Positions 2,493-21,413 of a stretch of DNA of 29,096 nucleotides are shown piece after piece; position 1 is the first letter of the stretch; each line of letters opens with the position of its first letter. A program made the position numbers and the translations under genes. The notes below the pieces were generated by a model. That model searched no databases, was not told the DNA's origin, and saw only the letters and a program-made list of their open reading frames with translations. This stretch comes from a virus: positions 1-29,096 of IMG/VR virus record IMGVR_UViG_3300012359_000044. One strand, 5' to 3'.

Positions 2493-2792
2493 TCATAGGT
2501 GTGCATGCTCCACTCTTTTCTTGCCACAACCGCTGCACTGCCACTCGCGCATCACCAGTTTATTCCAGGTTGTCGTGCCGTCGCGGTTCATGGTGTTCCA
2601 GGTGTAGTCTTTGACGTGTTCATAGACGTGCTCACCGCGCAGTACCTTACAATATGCTTTGTCCCTGTATGGAGAATGCCTACTTGCTGGATTGGGCTGA
2701 TTTTTTTCAGTTTCTAGTTGAACCAGCTGTTTTGGTACTCCCCAATCCAACTCTTTTTGCATCCTGGGACGTTTTCGTTGAAAATGCGCCAT
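2493..2792 (-). CDS. Small basic protein with C-terminal CxxC
   Basis: With the ATG at 2792, behind GGAAGGGG, the product has 99 residues; a longer GTG-started frame reaches 2843 but would overlap the DnaA-box region and lacks a site. The N-terminal half is very basic (FQRKRPRMQK), the middle carries YTWNTMNRDGTTTWNK and the C-terminus WQCSGCGKKRVEH. The last segment resembles half of a zinc ribbon, and the whole protein could bind nucleic acid. It is the first gene downstream of the origin-like region at 2836-2980. I do not recognise the family. Confidence 0.6.
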   Translation of the reverse strand: MAHFQRKRPRMQKELDWGVPKQLVQLETEKNQPNPASRHSPYRDKAYCKVLRGEHVYEHVKDYTWNTMNRDGTTTWNKLVMREWQCSGCGKKRVEHAHL

Positions 2793-2835
2793 ATCCCCTT
2801 CCAGATTGCCACTCTTGACGGTTTTTTGGTGAAAG

Positions 2836-2980
2836 TTATCCACAAGTTTTACACAAATGTGTAAAACTTCTGTTTACCTGCGAAAAAAGTCGTTTTTTGG
2901 TGTTTTCACGCGTTTTTCACGGTTTTTGAGAGTTTTTTACGCGAATTTCTCACTTTTTAGGCGTTTTTAGGCGTCTTTTT
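2836..2980. other. Candidate replication origin: DnaA box, inverted repeat, phased T-tracts
   Basis: TTATCCACA at 2836-2844 is identical to the strongest E. coli DnaA box. It is followed at once by AAGTTTTACACA / TGTGTAAAACTT, perfect 12-bp arms at 2844-2855 and 2858-2869 around AA. Next come runs of 4-6 T starting at 2893, 2903, 2913, 2923 and 2933, then 2946, 2954, 2964 and 2976. T-tracts repeated once per helical turn bend DNA and often mark origins or promoters. Origin function is inferred; a strongly curved promoter upstream region is the main alternative. Confidence 0.45.
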
Positions 2981-3113
2981 CGTTCTCTTCATCATCTAGC
3001 GTGAAATCACAGTCGTGCTTGGAAAAGCAGTCTGCGCACAACGTCGTCGCTGCCACAGAGGTCGCATCGCAAAGCCGTACAAGTATTTCCCCCTCGAAAT
3101 AGCGTGTATAACA
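2967..3113 (-). other. Protein-like open frame lacking a standard start codon
   Basis: On the minus strand, codons from 3113 to the TAA at 2969-2967 read without interruption and look like a real small protein: RYFEGEILVRLCDATSVAAT, then LCADCFSKHDC and an acidic tail. The cysteine pattern resembles the other small Cys-rich proteins here. An in-frame TAG (3116-3114) stands upstream and no ATG, GTG or TTG occurs near the beginning. GAGGGGG precedes an ATA codon and an out-of-frame TTG. It may start at a rare codon, or be the remnant of a longer gene. Its stop codon lies inside the T-tract array. Confidence 0.25.
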
Positions 3114-3151
3114 CTAGTATACGCTAATGTGGCAGACTTTTCTATTCCCGT

Positions 3152-3958: not shown

Positions 3959-4459
3959 CTATGCTTTTTTTTGCACCTCGACGGCGCGAGGGCTTTCTAA
4001 GGATATAATGACGCGGTAACAGAGGTGGCGTACGGTCTTCCCTCCTGCGACTTTGGGTAAAATAATGCGCACAGCGCGTTCGAGATAGCCCTGCTTGCGC
4101 AGTAGGTACAAGGCGTCGCGAATCATTTTCGCGCTGTAATGGTAGAACGCATTGGAAAGGTGTTGGGCCATTTCCATAAAGCTTTCCCAACACCAGTAGT
4201 TTTTCCATTTTTTTGAGTGTGGGTGTTCTCCACCCAAATACAGTAGGACACGTAAAGCTGTGGGCGTGAGCGAGCCGTCATAGGCCGCTTCGTGCGGGAC
4301 GTAGGAAATCACAAAAAGATACCCCCTTTGGGAACAATAGAATACATTGTGAAGTACATTGTGCAACATGTGGTAGGACAAAGAACACAACTCGTTCCCA
4401 AGTATACCATACTGTATGAGGTAGCAATCACCAAAACACACGTTGAAACGGCCTGACAT
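3959..4459 (-). CDS. Winged-helix-like protein, possible replication or regulatory DNA binder
   Basis: The central and C-terminal part of this 166-residue protein (from LTPTALRVLLYLGG) resembles a winged helix: an LTPTALRVLLYL helix, a FMEMAQHLSNAFYHYSAKMI helix pair, then DALYLLRKQGYLERAVRIIL, which fits a recognition helix, wing and strand. The N-terminal about 60 residues are hydrophobic and poorly characterised. Such domains occur in phage replication initiators, replisome organisers and transcription regulators; position near the origin-like region fits either. The ATG at 4459 has only a weak upstream site (GGGTG), and internal Met codons near residue 31 are alternatives. Calling the domain from sequence alone is moderately secure; the job is not. 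Confidence 0.55.
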   Translation of the reverse strand: MSGRFNVCFGDCYLIQYGILGNELCSLSYHMLHNVLHNVFYCSQRGYLFVISYVPHEAAYDGSLTPTALRVLLYLGGEHPHSKKWKNYWCWESFMEMAQHLSNAFYHYSAKMIRDALYLLRKQGYLERAVRIILPKVAGGKTVRHLCYRVIISLESPRAVEVQKKA

Positions 4460-7554: not shown

Positions 7555-10275
7555 TTATGTCAATTCGAGTGGTTGTAGGTCGCCCCAACCAGGGCCGTAC
7601 TTCATGTCTATAGGGAATGGGACGTAGAAACCTTTGTCTTGGATGAAGTCCAGGGCGTGTTCCATTTCGTAGGTAATCAGGGCTGCTCCTTCCTGTAAAT
7701 GTTCCTTCTTGATGAAAAAGGCGATGCTGTCATGGACGAAGAAGCCTATACGCCCCAACCCGCGCCTTTGTAGTTTATCGTGCAGGGAAATCACCGCCAG
7801 CATGGTCATGTCCGAGGACAATGACTGTATTGGGCTGTTCATGGCCTGGTTCAGCGTTTCTTTGAGCGTGCGCTGGCTAATAAGGAACTTGCGCCGCCTG
7901 TGCCCCATTGGGGTGTCTACGAAGCCGTACGTGAAGACGTCGTGGCACTGCTTCTCTAGCCACTTGGTAGTGGCGGCGAAACGATTGCCCCAGGCGCGGT
8001 GATACTCGGTGGTTTCTTCTAAGGTAGCGTCAACGCCCTGACTCAGCAGGGCTTCCTGTAACCCAAGGGGCGTCTGACCGTAGAGCTTGCCGAAGTTGAC
8101 CGACTTGGCGCGGAAACGCCAGAGTTTGGCGAGTTTCTTTATCAGTGACGCCGCATCAAGTGGCGTTCTGGCGTGTTCGGCTACGAGGTCGCGGTAGGTC
8201 AGGTGACTGTTTATGAGATGCTCTAACGCGGCAAGATCGCTACCACAGGCATCGATTTCAGCAAACTGCTTATGGAACACCATACGCGCTACCGCGCCGT
8301 GGAAGTCGGACTCCATACATGCCTTCAAGAGTTCCGCATCCTTTGCGTAGAACGCCGCCATGCGCATTTCTTGCTGCCCGTAGTCAGCTTCGACAAAGTA
8401 GTGGTCTGGCGGAGCAATGTAGAGCTTTTTAATGGGAGAGTTGCCATGGTCGTCACTGGGAATGTTTTGAATATTCAAGTCGGCGCTCGATGGGCGTCCG
8501 GTGACGGGATTGAAGCTAAAGTGCGTATGCAGGTTGCCGTCCCATGCTGACTCTTTGATGGCAGCCAGGACGTAGGTCGAGTAGAGCTTCATGTCCTTGC
8601 GGAAGGCCAGCAGCGCTGCGAGGAAGCGTCGCTGGATGCTGTCGTCCATTTCTTCCATATAGAACTTCAAACTCTCTTCATCGACAGACGGTGCTCCATG
8701 TGGCGTGTACTTGACGATAGGCAACTTCCAGGCAGAGAAGAGCAGTTCTCCCAGCTGCGTCGGGGAACCTGGATTGATAGGGACGCGATCAGTCACCTCT
8801 TCAAGGGTCGTTTCAAACGTCTGTGGCTTGGGTTGTCCCTTTTTCGGGCCGACTTTGTAATGTTCGATTGGAAGTGGTAGTTTGTGGCGTATTTTCCGCT
8901 TCTTCGCGACGGTGTAGCCTGCTAAGTCCTGACACGCTTGCTTTTGTTTGAGCAATGCACCGCCAAGTTCTTCACTTGGGTAGTCGCCCATTGCTTTTGC
9001 CAGAGCAAGAGCGGCTGCACGATCTACAGGAATACCTGCAAGTTCTATATCAGTAATGGCGTTCCAAACAGGCGCGAGTACGGTGTCATGACGGTATTGC
9101 GGTTTTGGGTAGCCATTGTGCGATGATTTCTCTCGCGCAAGGGCTTTGGGCAGGTCGTCCCGTCCTAGCCTGAGCGTGTAGATGCAGTCTTTGGCATGGT
9201 AGCGTGGGTCAGTAAAGCCAACTTTCTCTGTACCGTAATCATAGTCGCCAAAGTGACGGGCACTGAGTTGCTTCAGGCTGTGAACGCCTTGCCGTTCATC
9301 GTGCGACTTGCTTTCCAGCATGGTATCGATGTCAACCCGAATGTCGTCAATACCATATTGCTTGAGAAACTGCACATCGAATTTCCCGTTATGCCAAATC
9401 CATTGAACGTCGCGACGAGCGAACAAACCACCAAGTGCCTCTTTGACGGTTATATCTGACAGCACGGCTTTCGGTATGATATATGCGTAATCCTTCCTAT
9501 GGAAGTTCCACGCGAAACCCAACTGCTCTAGTGTGTCGGTTCTCCAGTCAAGCCCCGTAGTCTCTATGTCGCAGGAGATATACTTTTTTACTGTGCGTTC
9601 TATACGGTACAGGCGATCAAGACAACGCTCAACGTCATCTTCAAGTGTGTACGCGACAATTGGTGAGGGGATTGTCCCTTTGGCAACATCGAGCAAGTCG
9701 CGGGCTTTCTGAAACGTGTAGAGTACGTCTTGATAGTAGTCTGGGTTTCTCAAGCACGCAGCAGGGTGGTAACTGAAGACAATGAAGCACCCAAACGCTT
9801 CACTCCACTCGACCTTAAAGAGGCAGGACGTAATGCCATCATTGCGACCCGTGATGGCCTTGACTGCCGATGTGCCTAATACGACGATGACGTGTCGGTT
9901 GGGCAAGGATACAATCTCTTGCTTCAAACGTTCGTTACACGCCATGGTTTCTTTGGCCGTGAGTTTGTGATTGTCAGGCAGGCGACAGAGTACCGCGTTG
10001 GTGCAGTAAACGTCTGTGCGGTGCAGTCCAACTTCTTCCAGTGTGTTGTTGAGCAGGCGACCACTCTCTCCCACGAACGGCTTGGAAAGTGTCCACTCAG
10101 TGTTTCCTGGTGCCTCCCCTACGAAGATGATGCGGGCATCCAGATTGCCAGCGCCTGGAACAGGTTTGAATGGTGCCGTGAACAGACCACAGTTGGCGCA
10201 GTCGCAGTAGTGCTCAAAAGCAGAAGGGACGCGTGCAGGGCGCGGCTTTTTCTGCAAGGTGATGTGTTGTGCCAT
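7555..10275 (-). CDS. DNA polymerase family A fused to family 4 uracil-DNA glycosylase
   Basis: A 906-residue fusion. Residues about 20-195 are a family 4 uracil-DNA glycosylase: Cys26/Cys29, Cys97 and Cys113 fit the four Fe-S ligands, and GEAPG (53-57), KPFVG and HPAACL (170-175) are family motifs. Next comes a 3'-5' exonuclease with CDIETTGLD (D236, E238), HNGKFD (295-300) and YHAKD (359-363), all catalytic residues intact. The polymerase has motif A DYGQQEMR (631-638), motif B from R720 to Y732 with Lys724 and Phe728, and motif C VHDS (847-850). The usual HDE is HDS here; the essential Asp remains. The enzyme should replicate phage DNA with proofreading, with uracil recognition or removal in the same chain. 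AGGAGGAAC precedes the ATG. Confidence 0.93.
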   Translation of the reverse strand: MAQHITLQKKPRPARVPSAFEHYCDCANCGLFTAPFKPVPGAGNLDARIIFVGEAPGNTEWTLSKPFVGESGRLLNNTLEEVGLHRTDVYCTNAVLCRLPDNHKLTAKETMACNERLKQEIVSLPNRHVIVVLGTSAVKAITGRNDGITSCLFKVEWSEAFGCFIVFSYHPAACLRNPDYYQDVLYTFQKARDLLDVAKGTIPSPIVAYTLEDDVERCLDRLYRIERTVKKYISCDIETTGLDWRTDTLEQLGFAWNFHRKDYAYIIPKAVLSDITVKEALGGLFARRDVQWIWHNGKFDVQFLKQYGIDDIRVDIDTMLESKSHDERQGVHSLKQLSARHFGDYDYGTEKVGFTDPRYHAKDCIYTLRLGRDDLPKALAREKSSHNGYPKPQYRHDTVLAPVWNAITDIELAGIPVDRAAALALAKAMGDYPSEELGGALLKQKQACQDLAGYTVAKKRKIRHKLPLPIEHYKVGPKKGQPKPQTFETTLEEVTDRVPINPGSPTQLGELLFSAWKLPIVKYTPHGAPSVDEESLKFYMEEMDDSIQRRFLAALLAFRKDMKLYSTYVLAAIKESAWDGNLHTHFSFNPVTGRPSSADLNIQNIPSDDHGNSPIKKLYIAPPDHYFVEADYGQQEMRMAAFYAKDAELLKACMESDFHGAVARMVFHKQFAEIDACGSDLAALEHLINSHLTYRDLVAEHARTPLDAASLIKKLAKLWRFRAKSVNFGKLYGQTPLGLQEALLSQGVDATLEETTEYHRAWGNRFAATTKWLEKQCHDVFTYGFVDTPMGHRRRKFLISQRTLKETLNQAMNSPIQSLSSDMTMLAVISLHDKLQRRGLGRIGFFVHDSIAFFIKKEHLQEGAALITYEMEHALDFIQDKGFYVPFPIDMKYGPGWGDLQPLELT

Positions 10276-10297
10276 TTGTTCCTCCTAGTTGTTCGTA

Positions 10298-11512
10298 CTA
10301 GCTTAGCACGCTATCCAGTGGCGTCAAAACAAGCCCGCTGATCGGGTCAAAGGGTGGCTCGTGCGGCAGCACAGGAGGCTCCCCATGGCGTTCGCGGTAC
10401 CAGCGGTCACGGTCTGGAAAGACCAGTCCTGCCTGGTCGAGCAGACGCGCCTTGTGCGCAGTCCAGAACTGCGTCTGGCGCATGCTATGTGACATGGCCG
10501 CAAAGGAACTGAGATTGCCCATGTTGACTTTCTCCAGCCGCTCGATTTTCGCGGACTCGAACCAGGGACGCAGGCATCCACGCTCACAGGCGGTAAAGTC
10601 GCAGCCCGCCCGTTGCAAGTAGTACCCTGCCTGCCAGACGACGATACCATCGGTCTTCGCGGTAATTTGGATACCGTCGAAGACGTGGGCAAGCCGTTCC
10701 AGTTGTTCAAAGATTTCTTCCTGGGTGCGCGAGGTGAGCGCGTAGTCGCTCATGCCTGCCGCAAGCAGTTCCAGTTCATTGATGCCCATCTGAATGGGGA
10801 AACTGTGGACTTTCATCAAGATGATGTACAAGGCCAGCTCGAAGCGGTACTGGCGGTCTTTGCGCTTGGCGGATTTCATATTTTCCTGCCACAACGGGTG
10901 TGTGGCGATCAATTCCGCGAGCTGAGAAGCCACGGTGTCGCGGTAGGAGCGCATGCGCTCGCCCTTCGTCAACTGCACCCCATCATTGAGGCGGCGGTAG
11001 CGTTCGTCTGCAATTTCCGCGTCTACCTCTTCCGCCACAATGATTGGAATGGAAAATTCCAGGAACCGCTGCCGCATCTCTTCTGTCAGTTCGCTAAACC
11101 GTTTGTCAAACGGCAGGCTAGGGATATTGCGGATAAGTATTCTCTTGTGATACTCGACTTCATTAAAGGTCTTGAGTTCATCGTTGAGAAACAGGTAGAT
11201 CGTAAACAGGCGCTGCAATCCATCCTCTACCGTGTAAATGAGGCTGCCGCCTTCTTCCGCCGAACGCCAGACCTTGTTGAAGTAGATTTGCGTCAGCGGC
11301 ATAAACTCCGCTGGCCGCAGCAGCGTGTCTATCCACTTCTGCCGCTTGTAGTGCGGCCAGATCGGGGCACGCTGGCGGGGGTGAATATTGTAGTACTGCG
11401 CTTTTTGCAACAGCAGCGTCCGTATCGTGACATTTTGCCACCCGACCTTCCCGAAAGAGGCTTTGGGGAGGAGGTCTGGTTTATGCGCTATGGGCTTGAG
11501 CGTCGTGGTCAC
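10298..11512 (-). CDS. DUF262 domain protein (ParB/Srx-like nuclease fold)
   Basis: The 404-residue protein carries the DUF262 signatures: a YYNIHPRQRAPIWPHYKRQ segment at about 40-58, a YTVEDGLQRLFTIYLFL motif (D97, G98, Q100, R101; the family norm is DGQQR), and ERYRRLNDGVQLTKGE at about 170-185. DUF262 belongs to the ParB/sulfiredoxin-like fold and in GmrSD-type enzymes binds NTP and drives DNA cleavage. The DUF1524 nuclease partner domain (HNH-like) is not visible in the C-terminal half, so this is not a complete GmrSD. The GTG start overlaps the previous stop by 4 bp (GTGA) behind AGAGGAG. Placed between recombination and polymerase genes, it is likely a replication or anti-defence accessory protein; this is inference. 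Confidence 0.8.
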   Translation of the reverse strand: MTTTLKPIAHKPDLLPKASFGKVGWQNVTIRTLLLQKAQYYNIHPRQRAPIWPHYKRQKWIDTLLRPAEFMPLTQIYFNKVWRSAEEGGSLIYTVEDGLQRLFTIYLFLNDELKTFNEVEYHKRILIRNIPSLPFDKRFSELTEEMRQRFLEFSIPIIVAEEVDAEIADERYRRLNDGVQLTKGERMRSYRDTVASQLAELIATHPLWQENMKSAKRKDRQYRFELALYIILMKVHSFPIQMGINELELLAAGMSDYALTSRTQEEIFEQLERLAHVFDGIQITAKTDGIVVWQAGYYLQRAGCDFTACERGCLRPWFESAKIERLEKVNMGNLSSFAAMSHSMRQTQFWTAHKARLLDQAGLVFPDRDRWYRERHGEPPVLPHEPPFDPISGLVLTPLDSVLS

Positions 11513-12078
11513 GTCGTGGCTCCTCTCTTGCTACGCACGGGTGGGTGTTCACCTGTCTTCTCAGTATCCTGTCCATGCGCCAGCGACTTGAGGATGTCGG
11601 TGCCCCCTGAAGGTACGTCTGTTTCTTCTGTCAAAGTGGTAAGTGGTACGGTGGGTGGAGCGGGCGGCACCTGGGTGATTTTGAACGCACTAATAGCGGG
11701 AATAGACGGAAGGGTATTGATTCGTTCCGTCTCGTCGTGTGGGCTTCTCAACAACATGTCAGCATTTGGCGTATGAGCTAGACGGTACACTTCGTAGCGT
11801 ATCATGCGCTTGAGTAAATAACTCAGCGTGACCTCTGCATCAATATTGGTGTACTCGTTGTCTTTGAGCATACGCATAAGAGAACCACTGTCCTCCCAAA
11901 GATGAGTGTTAATGCTCATTCGTCCATACACAAAGTGTGCTCCTGGCATAGGAAGCTCTCGTGATTGCTGGACGGCAACGTCGTAAATATCTCGTTCAAT
12001 ACTATCAAGGATAGCTTTACACGTTGCGAGGAAGTCAAGGGTTGCTTGACTGAGTTCTTGTTCTGGCTGTTCTTTCAC
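11509..12078 (-). CDS. Hypothetical protein with disordered C-terminus
   Basis: A 189-residue protein of unknown family. Residues about 1-115 are helical (ATLDFLATCKAILDSIERDI; TLSYLLKRMIRYEVYRLAHT), while residues about 120-189 are rich in Pro, Thr, Ser and charged residues (PPAPPTVPLTTLTEE) and probably unstructured. It begins with GTG at 12078 behind AAGGAA. It couples directly to the DUF262 gene through a GTGA overlap, so the two products may act together. It is preceded by a perfect 12-bp inverted repeat at 12104-12137. Confidence 0.6.
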   Translation of the reverse strand: MKEQPEQELSQATLDFLATCKAILDSIERDIYDVAVQQSRELPMPGAHFVYGRMSINTHLWEDSGSLMRMLKDNEYTNIDAEVTLSYLLKRMIRYEVYRLAHTPNADMLLRSPHDETERINTLPSIPAISAFKITQVPPAPPTVPLTTLTEETDVPSGGTDILKSLAHGQDTEKTGEHPPVRSKRGATT

Positions 12079-12103
12079 TACAATAGTTCCTTTCCATGTG
12101 GGA

Positions 12104-12137
12104 AAGCTATCTGCTCACCTTCGTCAGCAGATAGCTT
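12104..12137. terminator. Perfect 12-bp hairpin between recombination genes
   Basis: AAGCTATCTGCT (12104-12115) and AGCAGATAGCTT (12126-12137) are exact inverted repeats around a 10-base loop. It lies in the 84-bp gap between the small partner gene ending at 12163 and the next gene starting at 12078. On the minus strand only TTTCCC follows the stem, not a proper T-run. It could be a weak terminator, an RNA-processing or stability hairpin, or an operator. Confidence 0.4.
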
Positions 12138-12162
12138 GGTATAATACACGCTGCGTTACCGG

Positions 12163-12606
12163 TTAGAAGTGAGCGCTTACGATCTCCTGATATTTGTCGG
12201 CAGGCCAGTACTCCTTCATGCGCAGGGAAAGCTTGTCCGCGCCGTTGGCATCCTTGTATGTCTCGTTCTCCATGCGCACGGTGACAAGTTCCTCAAGGAG
12301 GTCTTCGGTATTGAGGCTGATCTTTGCGTTTGGCACGTATTCCTGCCCCATCACCGCACAAACAAACTGGCCCAGCTGGTTGATACCAATCTGGTTGATC
12401 TCTCCGGTTTTCTTGCGCAGGTAGAAGCCGATGAAGGAGAGTGTCTGTCCGACATCCTCTTTGTGTGGCGCTTCGACAATGGTCAGGGTAAAGGTCACGG
12501 ACTTCGGCGGGTTCTGCCCGTCGGGTGCGTCTACCACTTCAGCCTTTGAGACGGCTCCGAGGTAAATTCCCTGTAGAGTGCGAGTTTCGAGGGTGAGTTC
12601 TGACAT
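12163..12606 (-). CDS. Probable single-strand DNA-binding or DUF669-like recombination partner
   Basis: A 147-residue, mostly beta protein (VTFTLTIVEAPHKEDVGQTL, SFIGFYLRKKTGE, LEELVTVRMENETYKDANGA) ending KEYWPADKYQEIVSAHF. Its size, strand-rich pattern and position directly downstream of a Sak4-like ATPase are those of the SSB or DUF669-type proteins that accompany phage recombinases. No conserved motif proves this. AAGGAA stands upstream of the ATG at 12606. It would bind single-stranded DNA to help annealing or replication. Confidence 0.5.
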   Translation of the reverse strand: MSELTLETRTLQGIYLGAVSKAEVVDAPDGQNPPKSVTFTLTIVEAPHKEDVGQTLSFIGFYLRKKTGEINQIGINQLGQFVCAVMGQEYVPNAKISLNTEDLLEELVTVRMENETYKDANGADKLSLRMKEYWPADKYQEIVSAHF

Positions 12607-12632
12607 AATGGGTTTTGTTCCTTTCCGAAAAA

Positions 12633-13520
12633 CTAATCTTCAAACAAAAAGTAATCAAAAATGATTTTCATGGTAGGGTCGGTTAAGGTGACTGGCAGCG
12701 GGCGAGAACGGGGAGCGCGCGTCTTCGCGTCGTGCGTTTTCTCTGCTTGGCAGTAGAGCCGACGTGGCAAGGTACCATCCTGATGCGGAGGCAGGTTTTT
12801 GTCCACTTCGAGACAGAACACGCCATCAAACATCGATGGAAGTTTTTCCGCTAGTTTTGCTGGGAGATGCGGCTGTGACTCCTTTATGTGCGTCATTTGA
12901 TTTTCTGCGGTGTGTTCCAGGCAGGTGACAATCACGTGACAGAACATGTTGCTAATGAAGGCATCTATCCAGTTTTCGATAATGGACTTCTGGGAGCCGT
13001 ACTCTTGTATCTGCGCACCGCGTGGTGCGTTCCCTTGTTCGATAGCGGCACTTGCACCACTGATCTTGTCCAGTACCTTGTCGGCAAGTGCGGAGACAGA
13101 GTCGATGATGACAGTGTCAATATAAGGAATACCAGCTTCTTCAGCTGCTTTCCTATTGGTCGCCACCCTCGCGTAGCGGATAATCTCTTGCATATGCTTG
13201 AGAATATCCACCGAGACGATCTTCCCCTCTTCGTCTTTCCTCTGCCCGACATAGACCGTGTTGGCTTTGTTGCGGTGCGTTCGCAGGTAGTCGATACCTG
13301 ATTTCACCCCATTTTTCTCAACAGCAATGACGAGCACGCTTTCCACACGTGCGTCTTCCAGGACGCTGGTTGCAAGCAGCGTCTTGCCTGATCCTTGCTT
13401 CCCTACGATGAGGATGTTGACGTATTGCGATATCTCTTCTGGAGTCGCAAAGGTGAGTGTTGGAGTTTGCGTAATTTTTTTTAATTGAACCTGCGCGGCA
13501 GGAACAGGTATTTGGTTCAA
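12633..13520 (-). CDS. Sak4/RecA-like AAA ATPase (phage recombinase)
   Basis: This 295-residue P-loop ATPase has Walker A VGKQGSGKTLL (K46, T47), a Walker B-type strand DTVIIDSVSAL (D140, S141), and later strands HVIVTCLEHTAE, all in the order of the small RecA-like core of phage Sak4-type recombinases (AAA_24-like). Such proteins promote strand annealing together with an SSB, whose likely gene follows. The start is a TTG at 13520: an in-frame TAA lies directly upstream (GAGGCATAAGCCTTG) and there is no other start before the P-loop. GAGG within the end of the nuclease gene provides the ribosome site, so the genes are coupled. Confidence 0.85.
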   Translation of the reverse strand: MNQIPVPAAQVQLKKITQTPTLTFATPEEISQYVNILIVGKQGSGKTLLATSVLEDARVESVLVIAVEKNGVKSGIDYLRTHRNKANTVYVGQRKDEEGKIVSVDILKHMQEIIRYARVATNRKAAEEAGIPYIDTVIIDSVSALADKVLDKISGASAAIEQGNAPRGAQIQEYGSQKSIIENWIDAFISNMFCHVIVTCLEHTAENQMTHIKESQPHLPAKLAEKLPSMFDGVFCLEVDKNLPPHQDGTLPRRLYCQAEKTHDAKTRAPRSRPLPVTLTDPTMKIIFDYFLFED

Positions 13521-13523
13521 GGC

Positions 13524-14555
13524 TTATGCCTCAATTTCACTAAGAGCAATCTGCTCTGGCCTCTCTTTTCTTTGACGGAAAGAGTTCTTGAGTAGGTATG
13601 CGACATTTCCCCCCTTCTGTAGACTGTCGCACGGTTCTCGAAACGGGCAGCGTGGACAGCCGAACTTTGAGACGGTGCGATAGACCTCGCGGTCTTCCCG
13701 TGCCATTTCTTTATAGACAGCACGCAGTTCACGCTCAATCATCTTGAGCTCAAATTGCGTACGCATCCACCAACTTCTTTGAAAGAACGTATTGCCTTGT
13801 TGTAGCAAGGTTGTCAGGATTTTCTGGTAGCGTTCCTGAGTAGGGTCGATACCATGTTCCACGAGCGCATTCAAGTAGACCTCATAGGTCGTGCTGATCT
13901 TGGCAACCGAGACTTCCTTACCGTTCTTCAACAAATCTGGCGTATCAGGAACGGCTTTCCTCAGTCCATTATAGCAGTATCCTCTAAGTGGTGTTCCTGG
14001 TTCGACGCCTGGAACCTCTCCCGCGTTTATAACGGACTGCATCGCCCATTGGTACATCGTTGATTGGTCATCATAGGCATGATAGGACGGGTCAGGGAAT
14101 GATTTGGCCGTCTTGTGCTCGATAACCCACAAGTCGCCGTACTCGTCGCACACAATGCCATCGACACGCCCTTCAAAGAAACCATCCGTACCTGGAATAG
14201 GGACGCAAAAGGGAAATTCATGTGCCATGAAGAGAAATTCTGGTTCTTTGTAAAAGCTTTGATAGTGCTCAAGCATAGCATACCCAAGACGAAGGAGATC
14301 AGCAATCGCTATTTCTTCTTCTGGGCTGAACGTGTACTCTGCTTCAACTGCTTTGAATAGCTTGTGAAATTCCAGAGTAAATGCGAGAAGTAGATTACCG
14401 TTGTGTCCGTAGTAATTGTCCAATGCGGCATGCACTGCGCTACCAAGCAGCAGGTCGAAGTCAGGCTTGAGTGGTTCCAGGTTCATGTCATAGCGAAACT
14501 GGTGCAGCCTACGGCACTGCTTGAACGCAGTAATGCTGGAATGACTGATAATCAT
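13524..14555 (-). CDS. Cas4/RecB-like PD-(D/E)XK nuclease with Fe-S cysteine set
   Basis: The 343-residue protein has all parts of the RecB/Cas4 nuclease family: SITAFKQCRRLHQFRY with Cys14; LGSAVHAAL with His42; GRVDGIV (D132) and VIEHKTA (E146, K148) forming the PD-(D/E)XK site; QSTMY (Q164, Y168) as the QxxxY motif; and C-terminal CPRCPFREPC with Cys300, Cys303 and Cys309. Cys14 and these three are the four ligands of a 4Fe-4S cluster. It probably trims double-stranded ends into 3' overhangs for the recombinase whose gene follows by 3 bp. The long 5' leader has a strong promoter (14697-14725). No CRISPR array or other cas gene is present. Confidence 0.88.
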   Translation of the reverse strand: MIISHSSITAFKQCRRLHQFRYDMNLEPLKPDFDLLLGSAVHAALDNYYGHNGNLLLAFTLEFHKLFKAVEAEYTFSPEEEIAIADLLRLGYAMLEHYQSFYKEPEFLFMAHEFPFCVPIPGTDGFFEGRVDGIVCDEYGDLWVIEHKTAKSFPDPSYHAYDDQSTMYQWAMQSVINAGEVPGVEPGTPLRGYCYNGLRKAVPDTPDLLKNGKEVSVAKISTTYEVYLNALVEHGIDPTQERYQKILTTLLQQGNTFFQRSWWMRTQFELKMIERELRAVYKEMAREDREVYRTVSKFGCPRCPFREPCDSLQKGGNVAYLLKNSFRQRKERPEQIALSEIEA

Positions 14556-14696
14556 GGCAGGTATCCCCCTAAGAAAGTTTCACAACAGAGGCGTGGGGAG
14601 CAGGTATGGATACGACCTTTTCCACACCGCTGTTGTGACGAGGTCGGTTTTGCTGATTGGAAACACGAAACTGTCCACTCCAACCTCGTTATATGA
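14556..14696 (-). promoter_or_regulatory. Structured 5' leader of the nuclease operon
   Basis: Between the promoter at 14697-14725 and the nuclease ATG at 14555 lies about 135 nt of leader. It contains two inverted repeats: TCACAACAG..GTGG at 14580-14596 with its partner at 14622-14638 (15 of 17 pairing), and CGAGGTCGG (14639-14647) with CCAACCTCG (14680-14687 plus one base). A GTG-started frame of 32 codons (14678-14580) follows GAGG and could be a leader peptide. Leader, hairpins and short frame together suggest post-transcriptional control, which is inference. Confidence 0.35.
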
Positions 14697-14725
14697 AGTA
14701 TACTATATTATAGAAGGCTTGTCAA
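14697..14725 (-). promoter_or_regulatory. Sigma70-type promoter for the nuclease/recombinase operon
   Basis: On the minus strand TTGACA (14725-14720), a 17-bp spacer and TATACT (14702-14697) form a near-consensus promoter. It lies over the end of the helicase gene and points at the nuclease gene. The bases around the -10 box (ATATAGTATACTTCAT) nearly match the plus-strand promoter at 16562-16590, and the 18-bp segment 14690-14707 recurs, inverted and with one mismatch, at 16511-16528. This indicates a common regulator or sigma factor. Confidence 0.7.
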
Positions 14726-16442
14726 TACCTTCATCTGAATGGGCTAAAATTGCTTCAACCACGGCTTGTATCGCCAGCGTCTCATCGGCGAGGTGACTCT
14801 TTTTCTCGACGACTTCCTTGATGTGTTGCTCGATGGTTCCCCTGCCGATGATGTCGGTGATGTTTACTGGCTCCGTACTGGTGAGGCGGTGAAAGCGGTC
14901 AGTTGCTTGCTCATTCTCTGGCGGAGTCCAACTTTTCTCAGCGAAGAAGACTTCAGTGATATAGCCTAAATTGAGTGCTGTTCCAATCGCCCCAATCGTC
15001 CCAATAAGGACAGGGGTCTCTGCATACTGAAAGGCAGTGACGGCCTCGATGCGTTCTTTGGCGTCCGTGTCGCCTGTAGCCAGGACGCTGGTGATTTTTT
15101 TCTTGAGTAGAATGTTCTGGATATGCGCGGCATAGCCTTTATGCCAGCAAAGGATAGCGACTTTTTGCACGCGTGTCAAGGCATTCTCTACCAGTTCTAG
15201 GAGGACGGCATCTTTGGGAGAGTCGTAGGGTAATCCCAGTTCCTCTGGGTTGTTACACAGCTTACGCATCGAGATGAGGGTGGATGCGACATTGGAGAAA
15301 TGACGTACGTCACTCTCATACTCCAGGCGCAGGGAGTCTCTTATGGCTTTATAGTCTTTCCACTGCCTCTGGCTCAAGTCGTAGTGCATCGTGGTGTAAA
15401 TCTTTGGTGGAAGCTCCTGCGCGACATCGATCTTGTGACGTCCCATCGCGTATCTGGCAAACAACTGTTTATGCTCTGCCGCCTTTGCTGGTTTGACGCC
15501 AGTTACTTTCTTTGCCCAGTTTGTCTCTTCGACAGTGAAGTAGGTGTTCACATACGTCCAGTAGGATGGGAATATAGCGGGGTCGAGGATGTGCAGCAGG
15601 TTCCATTCAGAACTAGGCATGTTCCAGATAGGGGTGCCAGTCAACTGGAACACGTGTGGGACATTGCGTGTGACCGCAGAGGCTGCTTTGGACTGCTGTG
15701 ACCCATTTTTGGACGTGCTATGTCCCTGTAGCTTGTGCGCCTCATCGAAGATAACAGCGTCCCATTTTCTACGTACCAGTCTAAGGTATTTTGCTTTCTG
15801 CGCTGACCTGTTCTCTGTTGCAGGCTTCCCTATTGCCTCCCGCAAGATGTCGTAGTGGATAATAAGGTATTTAGGATCACTATTGATAAGGGCTAATCGT
15901 TCCTGTGGCGTTCCTTCGACAATGACGGCATCCTCATCTAACCAGTGTTTGATTTCATCTTTCCACTGCCATTTGGCCGTCGCCAGCGTGACGATGAGGA
16001 CGCTCTGCGCGTCAATAAGCTTTGTTGCGACGAGCGATTCGAGCGTCTTCCCCAAACCGCAATCGTCATATAAAAGACCACGCTTGACTTGAGAGAGCCA
16101 CTTTGCGCCAATGCGCTGGTAGTCGCGTAGGTGTGTGGTGACTTCTAAGGGAAGGTCAATATCTTTTTGCTGCGTGATGCGCAGGTGCTCTTTTTGCTTT
16201 GCAATGGCCTCTTCATACCATTGTACTAGCGTGGCATCTACTTCCAATCGTCCAAAGAGTAGGCGTTGTAGGTCGCGCAGCACGAACACGTCTGGGTTGA
16301 AGTAAATTAGCCCACTGGCCTGTGGGCGAGCGCCAGGGACGCTCACCAGGATACTTTTTTCAGCGTCGTTGGTAGGCGTACAGACGAGACGATCAGGGTC
16401 GCCTTTGGCGGAATAATGTAAGGTTACGGTGGTCAATATCAT
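14703..16442 (-). CDS. SNF2-type (superfamily 2) helicase
   Basis: A 579-residue SNF2-like helicase. Motifs in order: LRDYQRIGAKWL (about 105-116), Walker A DDCGLGKT (126-133), IVTLATAKWQWKDE (motif Ia region), FDEAHKL (DEAH box, 232-238), LTGTPIWN (267-274), and in the second lobe LIGTIGAIGTALNL and ATDRFHRLT (motif VI). Such single-chain SNF2 proteins are frequent in phage replication modules, where they translocate on double-stranded DNA and may remodel forks or strip proteins. The ATG at 16442 follows AAGGA; a GTG one codon upstream is possible. Expression should come from the divergent promoter region at 16509-16537. Confidence 0.9.
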   Translation of the reverse strand: MILTTVTLHYSAKGDPDRLVCTPTNDAEKSILVSVPGARPQASGLIYFNPDVFVLRDLQRLLFGRLEVDATLVQWYEEAIAKQKEHLRITQQKDIDLPLEVTTHLRDYQRIGAKWLSQVKRGLLYDDCGLGKTLESLVATKLIDAQSVLIVTLATAKWQWKDEIKHWLDEDAVIVEGTPQERLALINSDPKYLIIHYDILREAIGKPATENRSAQKAKYLRLVRRKWDAVIFDEAHKLQGHSTSKNGSQQSKAASAVTRNVPHVFQLTGTPIWNMPSSEWNLLHILDPAIFPSYWTYVNTYFTVEETNWAKKVTGVKPAKAAEHKQLFARYAMGRHKIDVAQELPPKIYTTMHYDLSQRQWKDYKAIRDSLRLEYESDVRHFSNVASTLISMRKLCNNPEELGLPYDSPKDAVLLELVENALTRVQKVAILCWHKGYAAHIQNILLKKKITSVLATGDTDAKERIEAVTAFQYAETPVLIGTIGAIGTALNLGYITEVFFAEKSWTPPENEQATDRFHRLTSTEPVNITDIIGRGTIEQHIKEVVEKKSHLADETLAIQAVVEAILAHSDEGIDKPSII

Positions 16443-16508
16443 CACATCCTTGTATTTTTTCTCTCTTATAGGGTATACTTGAGATAGGTATTTTCTCTTT
16501 CTTTCTAC

Positions 16509-16537
16509 ACTATACTATACTTCATATACATTTGCAA
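16509..16537 (-). promoter_or_regulatory. Sigma70-like promoter for the helicase gene
   Basis: Minus-strand TTGCAA (16537-16532), a 17-bp spacer and TATAGT (16514-16509) point at the helicase gene 67 bp away. Both hexamers are one or two changes from consensus. The spacer and -10 contain the sequence shared, inverted, with the nuclease promoter region (16511-16528). Confidence 0.55.
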
Positions 16538-16561
16538 TACCGAAACGTTTTTTCGGCACAC

Positions 16562-16590
16562 TTGACAGCATTGCTGCTATATAGTATACT
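16562..16590 (+). promoter_or_regulatory. Sigma70-type promoter for the primase operon
   Basis: TTGACA (16562-16567), exactly 17 bp, then TATACT (16585-16590) lie 39 bp before the ATG at 16630. Hexamers and spacing equal those of the promoter at 14697-14725. The palindrome AGTATACT overlaps the -10 box, so a repressor bound there would block polymerase. Confidence 0.75.
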
Positions 16591-16629
16591 ACATTTCATA
16601 AGACATATTACTCAGGAGCAAGGAACCAT

Positions 16630-17337
16630 ATGAGCATGACGATGTTACGGAAACGGGATAGGTCGGAAGAGGAGGCGCGGATAGGGGCGATGGAAGCGTT
16701 TGTCAGGAGTATGACCAGATTTCCCATTCAGAGTCTGGCACTCCTACGAGCCAGCGCACAAATTAGCCCCTATCTGGAAGAGACACGCGACTGGTTGTTA
16801 AATAACCCTGATGAGAAGGCGGGAGGGAAGCCGTATCTCAGCGTCGTTCCGTTGTTACAAGGGTCGCGGGATACGACCTGGAGATACTACCTGACACGCT
16901 ATGAGTCCGTCCTCAAGCCATTATTCAAGCCACAATTGAGGCGCACTTCTCCGCAGCTGGACGGCCCACGTATGCGGGAACAGCAAAAGATTATTGATCG
17001 GCTCTACCGTTTCCCTGTCCTGACTCCGTCACTACTACAGGCTGCTTTAAGCATATCGGCATATACCTGGAGGGAAGACATTAAAACACTTATCGATGAG
17101 CCGCTACGGTTGGTAACGGTCTGGCATCCTGATGTACTGGAGGCATCTCCGACGACGAAGGATGGAGAAAAGGTGCCGAACCTGGGGGATTGGACGGAGA
17201 GGAAAATCCATGAGGACGTGACCTATCGGGGTGTACGGTACTTTCTCACGGGGTATGCCGAACGGCTGCGTGTTTTTCTCTTGCGAGAAGAAGATTTGGA
17301 TCGCAGCATGAAAGAGGAAGGGTTTCTCCGAAGATAA
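16630..17337 (+). CDS. Unknown basic protein made of two copies of one domain
   Basis: A 235-residue, Arg-rich protein of unrecognised family. Two halves are related: residues about 19-100 and 117-219 both contain RFP-x4-5-LL-x-A-x3-IS-x-Y-x2-E (RFPIQSLALLRASAQISPYL and RFPVLTPSLLQAALSISAYT) and later an R-Y-x-LT-x-Y-x3-L segment (RYYLTRYESVL and RYFLTGYAERL). The second copy has an insertion of about 20 residues between these parts. Helical and basic, it could bind DNA as an internal pseudo-dimer, perhaps controlling the adjacent divergent promoters, or assist the primase-helicase encoded next. AGGAGcAAGGAA precedes the ATG, and a strong promoter and terminator bracket the gene. Confidence 0.7.
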   Translation: MSMTMLRKRDRSEEEARIGAMEAFVRSMTRFPIQSLALLRASAQISPYLEETRDWLLNNPDEKAGGKPYLSVVPLLQGSRDTTWRYYLTRYESVLKPLFKPQLRRTSPQLDGPRMREQQKIIDRLYRFPVLTPSLLQAALSISAYTWREDIKTLIDEPLRLVTVWHPDVLEASPTTKDGEKVPNLGDWTERKIHEDVTYRGVRYFLTGYAERLRVFLLREEDLDRSMKEEGFLRR

Positions 17338-17350
17338 CTGTTTTGCAATG

Positions 17351-17380
17351 AAAAAAGCCTCCTGGGGGAGAGGCTTTTTT
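17351..17380. terminator. Rho-independent terminator
   Basis: AAAAAAGCCTC (17351-17361) and GAGGCTTTTTT (17370-17380) form a perfect stem around an 8-base loop and end in a T-run, 14 bp after the stop of the two-domain protein gene. The flanking A and T runs make it able to act in both directions. It should separate that gene from the primase-helicase gene, or attenuate read-through into it. Confidence 0.85.
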
Positions 17381-17525
17381 CTTTCTGGTCTTGCTGAGTG
17401 GGGGGAACACTCACTTGCGCTTTTCCAGATGGCTCCAATACGTATCCCCTGCCGAAGATAACGTACTAAATGTAGTGTAACAGATATACAGCAAAATGTC
17501 CAGTGGTGCTGTACGGGGATTATTC

Positions 17526-19808
17526 ATGGTGTATCAGCACATGTCATCAAATACGGGAGACACTCACCCAGATACCTATGCCGCCGCCAAGGAGCATCTC
17601 GCGAAGGGGCGGCTTCCTGTCCCTATTCCGTACGGGACAAAAGCACCAAAGATCAAGGACTGGCAAACAACGCCATTCACTGAAGAGCATTTTCGTGACT
17701 ATCCTAATATTGGCTTGAAACTCGATCACCACATCGTCGAAGTTGACTGCGACTGTCCCTACATCATCGCGTTGGCCCCACACTTGCTGCCGAAGACAGC
17801 CATGGTGCATGGCAGGCCAAGTAAGCCGCTCTCGCATTACTGGTATGCTATTGACGGTGATGGGGAGCATGAGACCTACACTGACGCACGAGGCGCTGAC
17901 GGCAAATATCTGGTATTGGTAGAACTGCGTGGAGGGTCGGGGCGGCAGACCGTCATCCCCCCCTCGACGTACCAATTAAATGGCAGCGCACCAGAACAGT
18001 TAGCCTGGAAAGATGGTCAAGAAGGAACACCCGCGCTCGTTGAGTTGGAAGAACTCCAACAAATCGTGCGCAAAATGGCGACGATTGTCTTACTTTCCTT
18101 ACATTGGGGTGGAGCACGACACAACATCGCCCTGGCGCTTGTCGGATACCTGGTACGTGGCGGCATGGAAGATGACGGCATTTACGAGATCGTCAAATGG
18201 GTGTGCTGGTTGACGAAGGACGAAGAAGCAGACGACCGCAAGCAGGCGGCACGGGACACCATCGAAAAGTACCATAATGGGGAGGCGGTGACGGGCGGAA
18301 AAACGCTGCGGGCGTTGCTAGGAAAAGAGGTCGTTGGGAAGATTGAGAACTGGCTGCACCTCAAACCAGTACTTGAAGAAGACGCGACAAACGCTGCCGA
18401 CCTCTATAAATACGAAGGCAACGATGTAGGCAATGCTGAGGCGGTGCGTGCGCTGCACGGGGATCGCCTTCGATTTACTGCCGCAATGGGATGGTTGACG
18501 CATACAGAGACCCACTGGATGCCCGATAGTACAGAGATTGTCGATCAGGCAATTATTGATACCTTCAGAAAGCGCCGCGCTCAGGCATCTGCCCGTGAAC
18601 TAGACGTGGTACAGAAGAAGTGTTGGTTGAGTAACGCGAATATTGTTGCGTGTCGATCACGTCTACAGGCTCTGTCAGGCATAAAAGTAGGTATTGCCGA
18701 GTTCGACAACGTGCCCTATTTACTCAATACCGCGAGCGGCGTTGTGGATGTGCGGAGTGGTGCTCTGGTGTCCCACGACCCTAGTGATCGGTTCACCTAC
18801 TGTCTCTCTTCGGAAATAGGGACAGAAGAGGACGCGAACCCGTTCATAGGGTATATACGAGATGCTGTCAATGGCAATGAGGCAATGGTCGCATATATTC
18901 GGCAGGCCATCGGCTATTCTTTTACCGGATATACGCGGGAAGAGATTTTATTTTATCTCTACGGACCAACACGTGGTGGAAAGGGAACGTTTGCCGAGGC
19001 GTTGTTGGCAGCGCTTGAAGGGCCGCTTGCGCGTGGGGCCGAGTTCAAAACATTTACTGCAAAGCGTGAGGGGGGAGATCAAGGGTTTGATTTCGCTGAG
19101 TTGCGCTCGGCGCGATTCGTTGTCGCGTCAGAGAGCAACCAGCATGAGAACCTTAATTCTGGCAAGGTAAAGCAGGCAACCGGAGGGGACCTTATTACCT
19201 GCGCGAAGAAGCACCATCAACCGTTTTCGTATCGTCCTCAGTTCAAGATATGGTTGCTCAGTAACTGGCCGTGTAACGGCGACCCTGAAGACGACGCGTT
19301 ATGGGCCAGGATACGTGTTATCAATTTTCCAAATTCGCATTTAGGGGTAGAGGATAAGGAACTGAAAGAACGGATGAAATCAGAGCAGGTGCAGCGCGGG
19401 ATATTGTGGTTGGGCATTAAGGGGGCAGGAGAGTGGTTTTCTAGCAGTGGTGGCTTACTGACTCCTCAAGGAGTGCAGACTATCACGCAGGAGCATCGCA
19501 GTATGCGAGACTACGTCCAGCAGTGGATTGATGAGCATGGGGTAGAATTGCGTCCCGATGACCCTGATGCTTGGGAGTCATCTGGGGACGTTGTGCGGGA
19601 TTATACCTTATGGTGTGGTAGGAACAATGTCGAACCGAAAGGGCCAAAAGCCCTCGCTCAGTCACTAAAACACAAAGGTTGCACACCGAGCGTGCAGAAA
19701 CGCGATACGCAGGGCAACATGCTACGTGGCTTTCAAGGCATTCGGCTACGTGAGAAGCATATCGCGTCACGCAGCAGTGCGATTACACTGATTAATAAGA
19801 AGGCGTGA
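17526..19808 (+). CDS. Primase-polymerase / D5-type superfamily 3 helicase
   Basis: A 760-residue replication protein. The N-terminal third is a bifunctional primase-polymerase: KGRLPVPIPYGTKAPKIKDW, the metal-binding EVDCDCP (D74, D76), HGRPSKPLSHYWY and ELRGGSGRQTVIPPS. The C-terminal half is a D5/P4-alpha type helicase: LFYLYGPTRGGKGTF Walker A (K486), SARFVVASESN Walker B-like strand, a GGDLITCAKKHH segment, and WLLSNWPCNGDPEDDALWAR with the conserved Asn and Arg-type sensor. It should open the origin, unwind DNA and make primers. I start at the ATG at 17526 behind ACGGGGATTATTC; an ATG at 17496 has no ribosome site. No promoter is evident in 17381-17495, so it may depend on read-through of the terminator. 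Confidence 0.92.
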   Translation: MVYQHMSSNTGDTHPDTYAAAKEHLAKGRLPVPIPYGTKAPKIKDWQTTPFTEEHFRDYPNIGLKLDHHIVEVDCDCPYIIALAPHLLPKTAMVHGRPSKPLSHYWYAIDGDGEHETYTDARGADGKYLVLVELRGGSGRQTVIPPSTYQLNGSAPEQLAWKDGQEGTPALVELEELQQIVRKMATIVLLSLHWGGARHNIALALVGYLVRGGMEDDGIYEIVKWVCWLTKDEEADDRKQAARDTIEKYHNGEAVTGGKTLRALLGKEVVGKIENWLHLKPVLEEDATNAADLYKYEGNDVGNAEAVRALHGDRLRFTAAMGWLTHTETHWMPDSTEIVDQAIIDTFRKRRAQASARELDVVQKKCWLSNANIVACRSRLQALSGIKVGIAEFDNVPYLLNTASGVVDVRSGALVSHDPSDRFTYCLSSEIGTEEDANPFIGYIRDAVNGNEAMVAYIRQAIGYSFTGYTREEILFYLYGPTRGGKGTFAEALLAALEGPLARGAEFKTFTAKREGGDQGFDFAELRSARFVVASESNQHENLNSGKVKQATGGDLITCAKKHHQPFSYRPQFKIWLLSNWPCNGDPEDDALWARIRVINFPNSHLGVEDKELKERMKSEQVQRGILWLGIKGAGEWFSSSGGLLTPQGVQTITQEHRSMRDYVQQWIDEHGVELRPDDPDAWESSGDVVRDYTLWCGRNNVEPKGPKALAQSLKHKGCTPSVQKRDTQGNMLRGFQGIRLREKHIASRSSAITLINKKA

Positions 19809-19894
19809 CAGGTTGTGACAGCAAAAAAATGACTTTTCTGGGAAAAGTGAAATATTCTGGGAAAAAGTGGGAAACTGTTGTCACAACGTGTCAC
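19805..19894. repeat. Nested inverted and direct repeats behind the primase-helicase gene
   Basis: The outer arms are GTGACAGGTTGTGACA (19805-19820) and TGTCACAACGTGTCAC (19879-19894), inverted repeats matching at 15 of 16 positions, each holding two GTGACA boxes exactly 10 bp apart. Between them are two direct copies of TTCTGGGAAAA(A)GTG (19836-19849, 19855-19869), the first also lying within the hairpin ACTTTTC-TGG-GAAAAGT. The left arm includes the stop codon of the primase-helicase gene. Such symmetric box pairs next to a D5/P4-type helicase could be its origin, or an operator for the following genes. Confidence 0.55.
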
Positions 19895-19919
19895 AGAGAA
19901 GATAGTAGAGTACGGAATA

Positions 19920-20177
19920 ATGGAGAACATAGTGAAAATTTTAGATGAGGAAATGTATGGGCAGTGCGCGTGGTGTGCAGTAGTAGAAAGTGGGCCATAT
20001 GAGGGAGCCGTGGTGGCTGAGAATGAGAAGGAAACGCATCTGGTGCTATTTGAAGAGTATTCGCATGGTATATGTCCCGTGTGCGATGCTCGCCTACGTG
20101 GTACTCGACGCTTTCGCAAAACGTATAGCGGGCCCCTTGCTCTCACTGATGGAGAAATTGTCCCATACAGAGGATAA
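19920..20177 (+). CDS. Small protein with two CxxC motifs (zinc-ribbon-like)
   Basis: An 85-residue protein with CAWC near residue 15 and CPVC near residue 53, the layout of a small zinc ribbon, separated by a beta-type stretch (EGAVVAENEKETHLVLFEEY). The frame extends back to a TTG at 19878, but that extension would lie in the right arm of the 19805-19894 repeat, so I use the ATG at 19920. The upstream site is weak (ACGGAAT). It probably binds nucleic acid or protein through the zinc site; no family recognised. Confidence 0.6.
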   Translation: MENIVKILDEEMYGQCAWCAVVESGPYEGAVVAENEKETHLVLFEEYSHGICPVCDARLRGTRRFRKTYSGPLALTDGEIVPYRG

Positions 20178-20187
20178 AGGAGGGGTC

Positions 20188-20466
20188 ATGCGCCCGACTA
20201 TTCCCTATGGCAAGGCCATCTCACTGTTGCAGAACGACATGCCACAATTCCTTACGACGTTAGAGCTTGCTTTGTGGGGGATAGAAGTGTATGGCGTTCC
20301 TCCACCGAGGGTAGGTGAGCGGGAAGATTTCGACGCGCACTACTGCAATGCAGTACTGCTGGTGTTGCTGTTGGAGGAGTTCGTGGTACCGTGCCCAGAC
20401 ACGCGTCCTTATTGGAACCGTATCGCGGCAGTCACGCAGCCTAGACCGCGTATGGAAGAAGCGTGA
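20188..20466 (+). CDS. Small hypothetical protein
   Basis: A 92-residue protein starting MRPTIPYGKAISLLQNDMPQ, with helical segments (QFLTTLELALWGIEVYG; YCNAVLLVLLLEEFVVPC) and a basic end. The frame is open from 19990, but AAAGGAGGGGTC stands directly before the ATG at 20188, 10 bp after the previous gene, and decides the start. Its last 26 bp overlap, tail to tail, the end of the minus-strand gene at 20441-20962. The strongly hydrophobic second segment could be a buried helix or a membrane segment. Function unknown. Confidence 0.6.
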   Translation: MRPTIPYGKAISLLQNDMPQFLTTLELALWGIEVYGVPPPRVGEREDFDAHYCNAVLLVLLLEEFVVPCPDTRPYWNRIAAVTQPRPRMEEA

Positions 20467-20962
20467 AGCCGATGCTCAGGCGGCGAAAGCCAATGGCAAA
20501 TCCCATGATGGCCGTGGTATCTATCGCTTTGGTGTAGCCACTCATTTGCGTCTTGACGATACTGGTAGGGTACACAATGGAGTTAACGGTTAGGCCACTG
20601 TGCGACTGGATATACGTTTCCAGGTTGGCCTTCATACGTTCCAAATCCGCTGCGATGTCGAGGCGAATAGTGTCTAGCAAGAGCGGTTGTCTGTCCCAGC
20701 GATCACAGTAGTCTACCAGCACCGTGTGCATCCCATCGTAGGTGGTGAGTGAGTTGCGCGATACCTGCTGTTGCCCCGACGACAATAGGACGGCAGGAAA
20801 CACCCCCAGTGACATAGCATATTTTTGCTGCACGAAGAAGAGTTCCAGGCCATTTCCAGAGAGACTGCCTGTTGCGAGCTGAGTATTAGGACTTAAAATA
20901 CTGGGCAGGGTACCCAATAATGCAACCTCGTTAAGCGGGTTGTTAGGCGTCCTTAGAGGCAT
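20441..20962 (-). CDS. Putative tail-completion or terminator-like structural protein
   Basis: The 173-residue protein has strands and helices in the order YAMSLGVFPAVLLSSG, YDGMHTVLVDYCDRWD, TIRLDIAADLERMKANLETY and, at the end, AIMGFAIGFRRLSIGFTLLP. A beta-alpha-beta layout with a central helix of 'R..D...D..RM...L' type resembles phage tail terminator or completion proteins, but I cannot name a family with certainty. AAGGTGAG precedes the ATG at 20962. It follows the membrane protein gene by 18 bp and its 3' end overlaps the plus-strand gene 20188-20466. Confidence 0.45.
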   Translation of the reverse strand: MPLRTPNNPLNEVALLGTLPSILSPNTQLATGSLSGNGLELFFVQQKYAMSLGVFPAVLLSSGQQQVSRNSLTTYDGMHTVLVDYCDRWDRQPLLLDTIRLDIAADLERMKANLETYIQSHSGLTVNSIVYPTSIVKTQMSGYTKAIDTTAIMGFAIGFRRLSIGFTLLPYAV

Positions 20963-20980
20963 GGCTGCTCACCTTTCTCG

Positions 20981-21319
20981 TCAGGCGTGCGGTGAAGGAA
21001 TAATAATGGGAGTCGGCTCAGGGGCGCGTGCAGGTACTGGATTTTGTGCCTGTAAGAGTGCCTGTGCCTGCGCGAGCTGTGCTGCCACATCGGGTGGAAT
21101 CACACCCACGCCAAAGCGGTAGCCAAACAGCGCTCCTGCAAGGGTAGTGCTGGTGCCAAACACATAGTCGGAGTTGATGTACTGGTGGCCGAAGAGGACA
21201 AGCAGGACACATGTCGCCAGCAGGCCAAGGAGAGCTAATAAATGAACCATGTTGTCACTGAGGGAAGACATACGTTTCTTTTTCCTTTCTACGAGTTCGT
21301 GCGCAGCAACGTCAGCCAT
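20981..21319 (-). CDS. Membrane protein, possible holin
   Basis: The 112-residue protein has a basic N-terminus (ELVERKKKRMSSL), a clear transmembrane segment (MVHLLALLGLLATCVLLVLF, about 25-44) and a second moderately hydrophobic stretch (TTLAGALFGYRFGVGVI, about 57-74). It ends in a flexible Ala/Pro/Gln tail (QAQNPVPARAPEPTPIIIPS). Size, two hydrophobic segments and a place among tail genes suit a holin, but no endolysin gene is visible nearby, so other membrane roles remain open. GGAGAT lies before the ATG at 21319. Confidence 0.5.
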   Translation of the reverse strand: MADVAAHELVERKKKRMSSLSDNMVHLLALLGLLATCVLLVLFGHQYINSDYVFGTSTTLAGALFGYRFGVGVIPPDVAAQLAQAQALLQAQNPVPARAPEPTPIIIPSPHA

Positions 21320-21396
21320 ACGATCTCCTTCTGCTGTGGTACTTTTCTGCTACACGGTGGTACGCGGTGAAGCAGTATGCTATGCTCTTTTCCTGT

Positions 21397-21413
21397 CTGG
21401 TCACAGTGACCAG
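21397..21413. promoter_or_regulatory. 17-bp palindromic operator candidate upstream of the secreted-protein gene
   Basis: CTGGTCACAGTGACCAG is a perfect 8+1+8 palindrome, 24 bp before the ATG at 21437 and just upstream of its GGAAAGGA site. With a one-base centre it cannot fold into a useful RNA hairpin, so a dimeric DNA-binding protein is the likely reader. TATGCT boxes at 21376 and 21381 may be -10 elements, but no good -35 is visible. Confidence 0.5.

Follow-up and report, generated by a model that had tools for sequence, protein, structure and literature searches.

The longest intergenic gap of a viral contig from IMG/VR is, on balance, probably a composite theta-type replication origin of this uncultured phage, at which host DnaA would help to load a P4/D5-type primase-helicase that the phage itself encodes. 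An earlier sequence-only reading had called the locus origin-like, and this description gains support from three consensus DnaA boxes, from the strongest predicted bend in the window (the whole stretch of DNA analyzed, 29,096 bases), from a change in strand asymmetry near 3.6 kb and from the occurrence of the same box triad in 22 other viral contigs. A+T-rich melting DNA is not outstanding here. From this arrangement we infer a series of events in which host DnaA would bind the triad at 2836-2866 and perhaps the weaker boxes nearby, and the curved T-tract segment at 2883-2980 would wrap or fold the DNA against the DnaA complex, either alone or together with a host HU- or IHF-like protein. A neighboring segment would then open, the primase-helicase (17496-19808) would be loaded next, and forks would depart, mainly rightward over the replication genes. 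Coordinates of the features are given in Table 1.

Table 1. Features in and around the proposed origin region, with the primase-helicase gene; positions are those of the window
Feature	Position	Strand	Sequence or remark
Small gene downstream of gap	2493..2790	-	without family match
Intergenic gap, proposed origin region	2791..3151	.	361 bp; from the gap list
DnaA box 1	2836..2844	+	TTATCCACA, perfect
Perfect 12-bp inverted repeat	2844..2869	.	AAGTTTTACACA-AA-TGTGTAAAACTT; boxes 2 and 3, extended by 3 bp at either end
DnaA box 2	2847..2855	+	TTTTACACA, exact TTWTNCACA; 11 bp from box 1
DnaA box 3	2858..2866	- (inverted)	TTTTACACA, exact TTWTNCACA; 11 bp from box 2
Weak DnaA box	2879..2887	-	TTTTTCGCA, 1 mismatch
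Phased A6/T-tract array	2883..2980	.	eight T4-T6 tracts, five exactly 10 bp apart
Left copy of inverted pair on either side of most of the T-tract array	2900..2911	-	GCGTGAAAACAC
Weak DnaA box	2913..2921	+	TTTTTCACG, 1 mismatch
Right copy of the same inverted pair	2999..3010	+	GCGTGAAATCAC; 11 of 12 identical
Weak DnaA box	3103..3111	-	TTATACACG, 1 mismatch
P4/D5-type primase-helicase	17496..19808	+	Prim-Pol, D5_N, TIGR01613 (above its cut-off)

Genomic context of the gap

The window is the entire IMG/VR record IMGVR_UViG_3300012359_000044, which is classed as linear and is probably a fragment. Its replication arm lies on the - strand and encodes two DNA methylases, a DNA polymerase A, an AAA ATPase, a PD-(D/E)XK nuclease and an SNF2-type helicase, as well as a protein with a GmrSD_N (DUF262-type) domain (10298-11512, -). 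A family-4 uracil-DNA glycosylase domain is fused to the N terminus of the polymerase (7555-10275, -), and this protein has matches over at least 80% of its length in 24 known phage records. A P4/D5-type primase-helicase gene, as expected of a P4-type replicon, is present on the + strand of the window, so that the phage encodes both its own polymerase and its own primase-helicase; the latter is a candidate for the replicative helicase of the phage. The right part of the window is mostly on the - strand and includes long repetitive, probably tail-related genes. An 848-aa protein at 24484-27030 (-) is made up of some twenty repeats of the type LATRVRLLAVxTKD, and its sole match in the plasmid collection adjoins a tail-sheath gene on a Mycetohabitans replicon. 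Searches of the window for RNA families and tRNAs found none, and the structure models of genes 3959-4459 and 16630-17337 were of too low confidence for use.

The gap was held in the sequence-only reading to be the longest of the replication arm, and at 361 bp it indeed heads the list of gaps for the window as a whole; both flanking genes are on the - strand. The gene downstream of it (2493-2790) has a likely start codon, ATG, at 2790 behind GGAAGGGG, and an alternative GTG start at 2843 would overlap DnaA box 1. One near-identical contig (99.95% over 9379-28227) was found, which ends at 9379, short of the gap locus. This sibling was the only sequence recovered when a homologous locus was sought through the AAA and primase proteins; the protein of the gene beside the gap led to no homologous locus, the relatives of the methylases were too distant to supply one, and a scan of bacterial genomes with the polymerase and tail proteins gave no match.

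DnaA boxes and inverted repeat

Box 1, described in the sequence-only reading as a perfect DnaA box, occurs as a single exact copy in the window. The 12-bp inverted repeat noted beside it is also perfect, with 2 nt between its arms, but it is not a separate element: it consists of two inverted consensus DnaA boxes (2847, +, and 2858, -), which had been overlooked. Exact matches to TTWTNCACA, the box consensus used here, from which the preference of the host's DnaA may differ, number five in the window, and three of them lie within 31 bp at this locus with an 11-bp pitch. None of 300 dinucleotide shuffles contained three boxes within 40 bp, and a survey of 117 other viral loci (1.19 Mb) gave no case of three within 100 bp. 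With 0 to 1 mismatch allowed, 6 boxes were counted in the gap, where the density elsewhere in the window predicts 0.53. A DnaA-box cluster is usually defined as at least three boxes with a mean spacing of <100 bp (PMC7561715), and the triad at 2836-2866 supplies these three with consensus boxes; a DnaA-trio run was sought in the gap and none was found. Two other perfect inverted repeats with 12-bp arms occur in the window, one inside a gene (26697-26722) and a terminator-like one past the end of gene 16630-17337 (17350-17381). A further long perfect inverted repeat lies at 22526-22545.

The main rival to an origin is an operator or a DnaA-controlled promoter, a reading that we judge unlikely. 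The 26-bp palindrome would then serve the small gene at 2493-2790 (-) as a phage repressor's operator or as a switch under DnaA control, and the T-tracts, read as A-tracts on the - strand, would form an UP-element-like or curved upstream activator. Palindromes with 12-bp arms are typical of operators, the boxes stand 46-76 bp upstream of the likely start codon, the A-tracts lie upstream and on the same strand as this gene, and DnaA stimulates transcription at the lambda origin (PMC3985674 and its reference list). However, no sigma-70-like promoter was found on the - strand between 2790 and 3000 (the nearest is at 3144-3116), and the palindrome half-site has no second copy elsewhere in the window, whereas repressor operators are usually repeated. 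An operator is less likely because the palindrome is present as a single copy with no promoter-like site over it, and a repressor would leave unexplained the third box and the 11-bp pitch, which match the DnaA consensus.

IMG/VR was scanned with the pattern TTWTNCACA-NN-TTWTNCACA-NN-TGTGNAWAA, with its reversal, of equal composition and symmetry, as a control. The triad was found in 22 other contigs (L085-L106) against none for the control; by eye, from the sequence around the boxes, they fall into about seven seemingly unrelated groups. In these contigs the triads belong to clusters of 3-13 boxes that occupy the gaps separating gene blocks, often at the point where gene blocks diverge, and several adjoin a terminase gene. 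The three boxes have the same spacing and orientation as in the window; unlike the window locus, the 22 contigs have no phased T-tract array in the flanks inspected, and most of them have more boxes, of the TTATCCACA rather than the TTTTACACA type. Because 22 contigs share the layout and the control found none, the triad is, as judged from these patterns, a genuine DnaA-box architecture in phages, which alone is no proof of an origin.

Phased T-tracts and predicted curvature

Reading by eye and by script both placed the T-runs where the sequence-only reading had them (starts at 2893, 2903, 2913, 2923, 2933, 2946, 2954, 2964 and 2976), of which the run at 2946 is TTT only; the A6 run at 2883-2888 shares the phase of the T-tracts. 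That reading had further described the spacing as exactly one helical turn. The tracts are phased, and five of them are 10 bp apart, but the equation of 10 bp with one turn is loose, since the best fit for the eight T-tracts is 10.25 bp. The nine A/T-tracts of 4 or more bases had a phase coherence of 8.3 out of 9, which none of 5000 dinucleotide shuffles of the region attained; when the same tracts were placed at random, the phasing had P = 0.00015. Five tracts in series exactly 10 bp apart likewise appeared in 0 of 5000 region shuffles, and equal phasing was seen in 0 of 80 other viral loci, only 11 of which are as high in G+C as this phage. Curvature prediction, put forward in the sequence-only reading as a check on the bend it expected, ranked the array by far the first among the bends of the window, with 175 degrees over 84 bp where the next reaches 107, and centered it near 2948; absolute angles from the dinucleotide wedge model are rough. 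The locus thus has the helix-phased A/T-tracts and above-background predicted curvature expected of intrinsically bent origin DNA. Phage genomes are reported to lack strong curvature periodicity in general (PMC3431218), which makes this local T-tract array more notable.

Box, bend and palindrome had also been proposed as the make-up of many replicons, and the survey did not support this, as the combination was not found to recur in other viral contigs. Phased GTTTT arrays were present in 37 other viral contigs, mostly as simple tandem repeats and as a rule without nearby boxes, and the combined pattern of box and phased GTTTT array occurred in two other contigs, neither with a DnaA cluster. 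Degenerate arrays of the GTTTTTNNNN decamer lie in intergenic DNA without DnaA boxes in contigs L133 (7574-7618) and L140 (9065-9109, reverse orientation), and the one in L133 is located where genes diverge, next to replication genes, a hint that arrays of this kind have their own function.

These arrays bear on a second alternative, which we regard as quite improbable: the gap would be an iteron-type origin, or a control site, for an initiator that the phage encodes (its P4-type primase-helicase or the product of an unrecognized gene), with the DnaA boxes as accessories and the repeated decamer GTTTTTNNNN or the CGTGAAA repeats as putative binding sites. Within the gap, CGTGAAA occurs 3 times against 1 in the rest of the window and GTTTTT 6 times against 12, values that are uncorrected for the number of words tested, and GCGTGAAAWCAC is present as an inverted pair at 2900 and 2999. 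Together, these words and the pair could be candidate sites for a phage initiator, and the pair by itself is a possible initiator site. The degenerate decamer arrays of L133 and L140, the former beside replication genes, would fit such a site, but T-tract arrays can be structural alone, and no initiator was recognized; the candidate at 3959-4459 has no family match and only a low-confidence model.

Helical-pitch direct repeats in intergenic DNA also mark centromeres and packaging sites, as is generally known, and the gap might in principle serve partition or packaging (as centromere-like phased repeats or as a bent site for terminase) and carry DnaA boxes by chance. We consider this highly improbable: no ParA/ParM, centromere-binding or terminase gene was recognized beside the locus, and the three consensus boxes would remain unexplained.

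A+T-rich melting DNA is expected at an origin. Beside the boxes no A+T-rich unwinding element was found: the T-rich segment is broken up by G+C, and its stability, at about the 98th to 99th percentile, is low but not exceptional and lies outside the top ten places. The least stable DNA in the window is at 303-332 and in the divergent promoter region at 16433-16607. As a doubtful variant of the origin reading, the DnaA triad and the curved T-tract array of about 100 bp might replace the melting element and directly recruit the P4/D5-type primase-helicase; if this were true, a phage with its own replisome would be tied to the initiation control of its host.

Strand asymmetry

GC skew was computed on third codon positions only and for the + strand. 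From about 3.5 kb rightward to the end (3466-28807) it is mostly positive in either gene direction: coding-strand skew was -0.145 (3.15-16.4 kb) and -0.225 (22.5-28.8 kb) for genes on the - strand, and +0.172 for genes on the + strand. The sign of the skew is independent of gene strand, so that gene direction cannot explain it, and the positive skew is of a kind that a rightward-moving fork can produce. The best change point was at 3610, about 750 bp to the right of the boxes, and was matched in 0 of 300 block permutations. Cumulative GC skew, another check suggested in the sequence-only reading, had its minimum at 3552, about 700-750 bp from the boxes, with a left arm of only 2.8 kb. The fraction of G at third positions was 0.46 to the left of 2840 and 0.58 to the right (Fisher P = 3 × 10−6, with sites treated as independent); the left side comprises 426 G/C third positions, and its 0.46 is below the right side but not clearly below one half. 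Given the distance of 750 bp between boxes and change point, and a stretch of only 2.8 kb left of the boxes, the position of the skew change is consistent with an origin at this locus but not pinned to it. The replication-like asymmetry spans at least 25 kb of this phage fragment.

GC skew was also considered as support for an origin in the contigs that share the triad, and was rejected. The cumulative minimum lay within 1 kb of the triad in 9 of 15 contigs (11 if circular), and often only a few hundred bases away from it, but this is largely an effect of gene direction, as genes diverge from the triad and third-position skew shows no switch there. In ct2KA10, a relative without DnaA boxes, the minimum falls at the same terminase boundary, and the comparator skew was therefore discounted.

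Comparison with known origins and implications

Replication of lambda uses O, P and the host DnaB helicase. Unlike lambda, this phage has a P4/D5-type primase-helicase, and no O or P was recognized. The two are alike in that the lambda origin is also a phage origin with bent repeat DNA, and the role that host DnaA has in lambda is proposed here; DnaA-box-like sites have been footprinted downstream of pO in lambda (PMC3985674), and the bending of the lambda iterons is described in PMC5043065, which also covers the DnaA boxes of P1 and the bent DNA of pSC101. Those origins, like this locus, are small intergenic regions in which DnaA boxes accompany repeats or a bend, and the replicon in each case codes for a replication protein of its own; unlike them, the locus has no identified Rep protein and no classical iterons of 19-22 bp, and its phased tracts are T decamers. 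With bacterial oriC it shares three consensus boxes, two of which stand head to tail at 11-bp pitch, and it falls under the cluster definition used for oriC (PMC7561715), but it differs in having three exact boxes only, and neither a low-stability unwinding element nor a DnaA-trio run was found.

Phage and plasmid origins with DnaA boxes are already known, and Ori-Finder has been applied to predict such boxes in one phage (PMC11512268). The added interest of this locus lies in the phage's own primase-helicase and in the repeated occurrence of the triad among seemingly unrelated phages. To our knowledge, few phages use the host initiator DnaA. If the gap is an origin, the initiation signal of the host would still be read by a phage equipped with its own polymerase and primase-helicase. 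The recurrence of the triad in about seven seemingly unrelated groups of environmental phage contigs makes dependence on DnaA broadly testable in phages by sequence.
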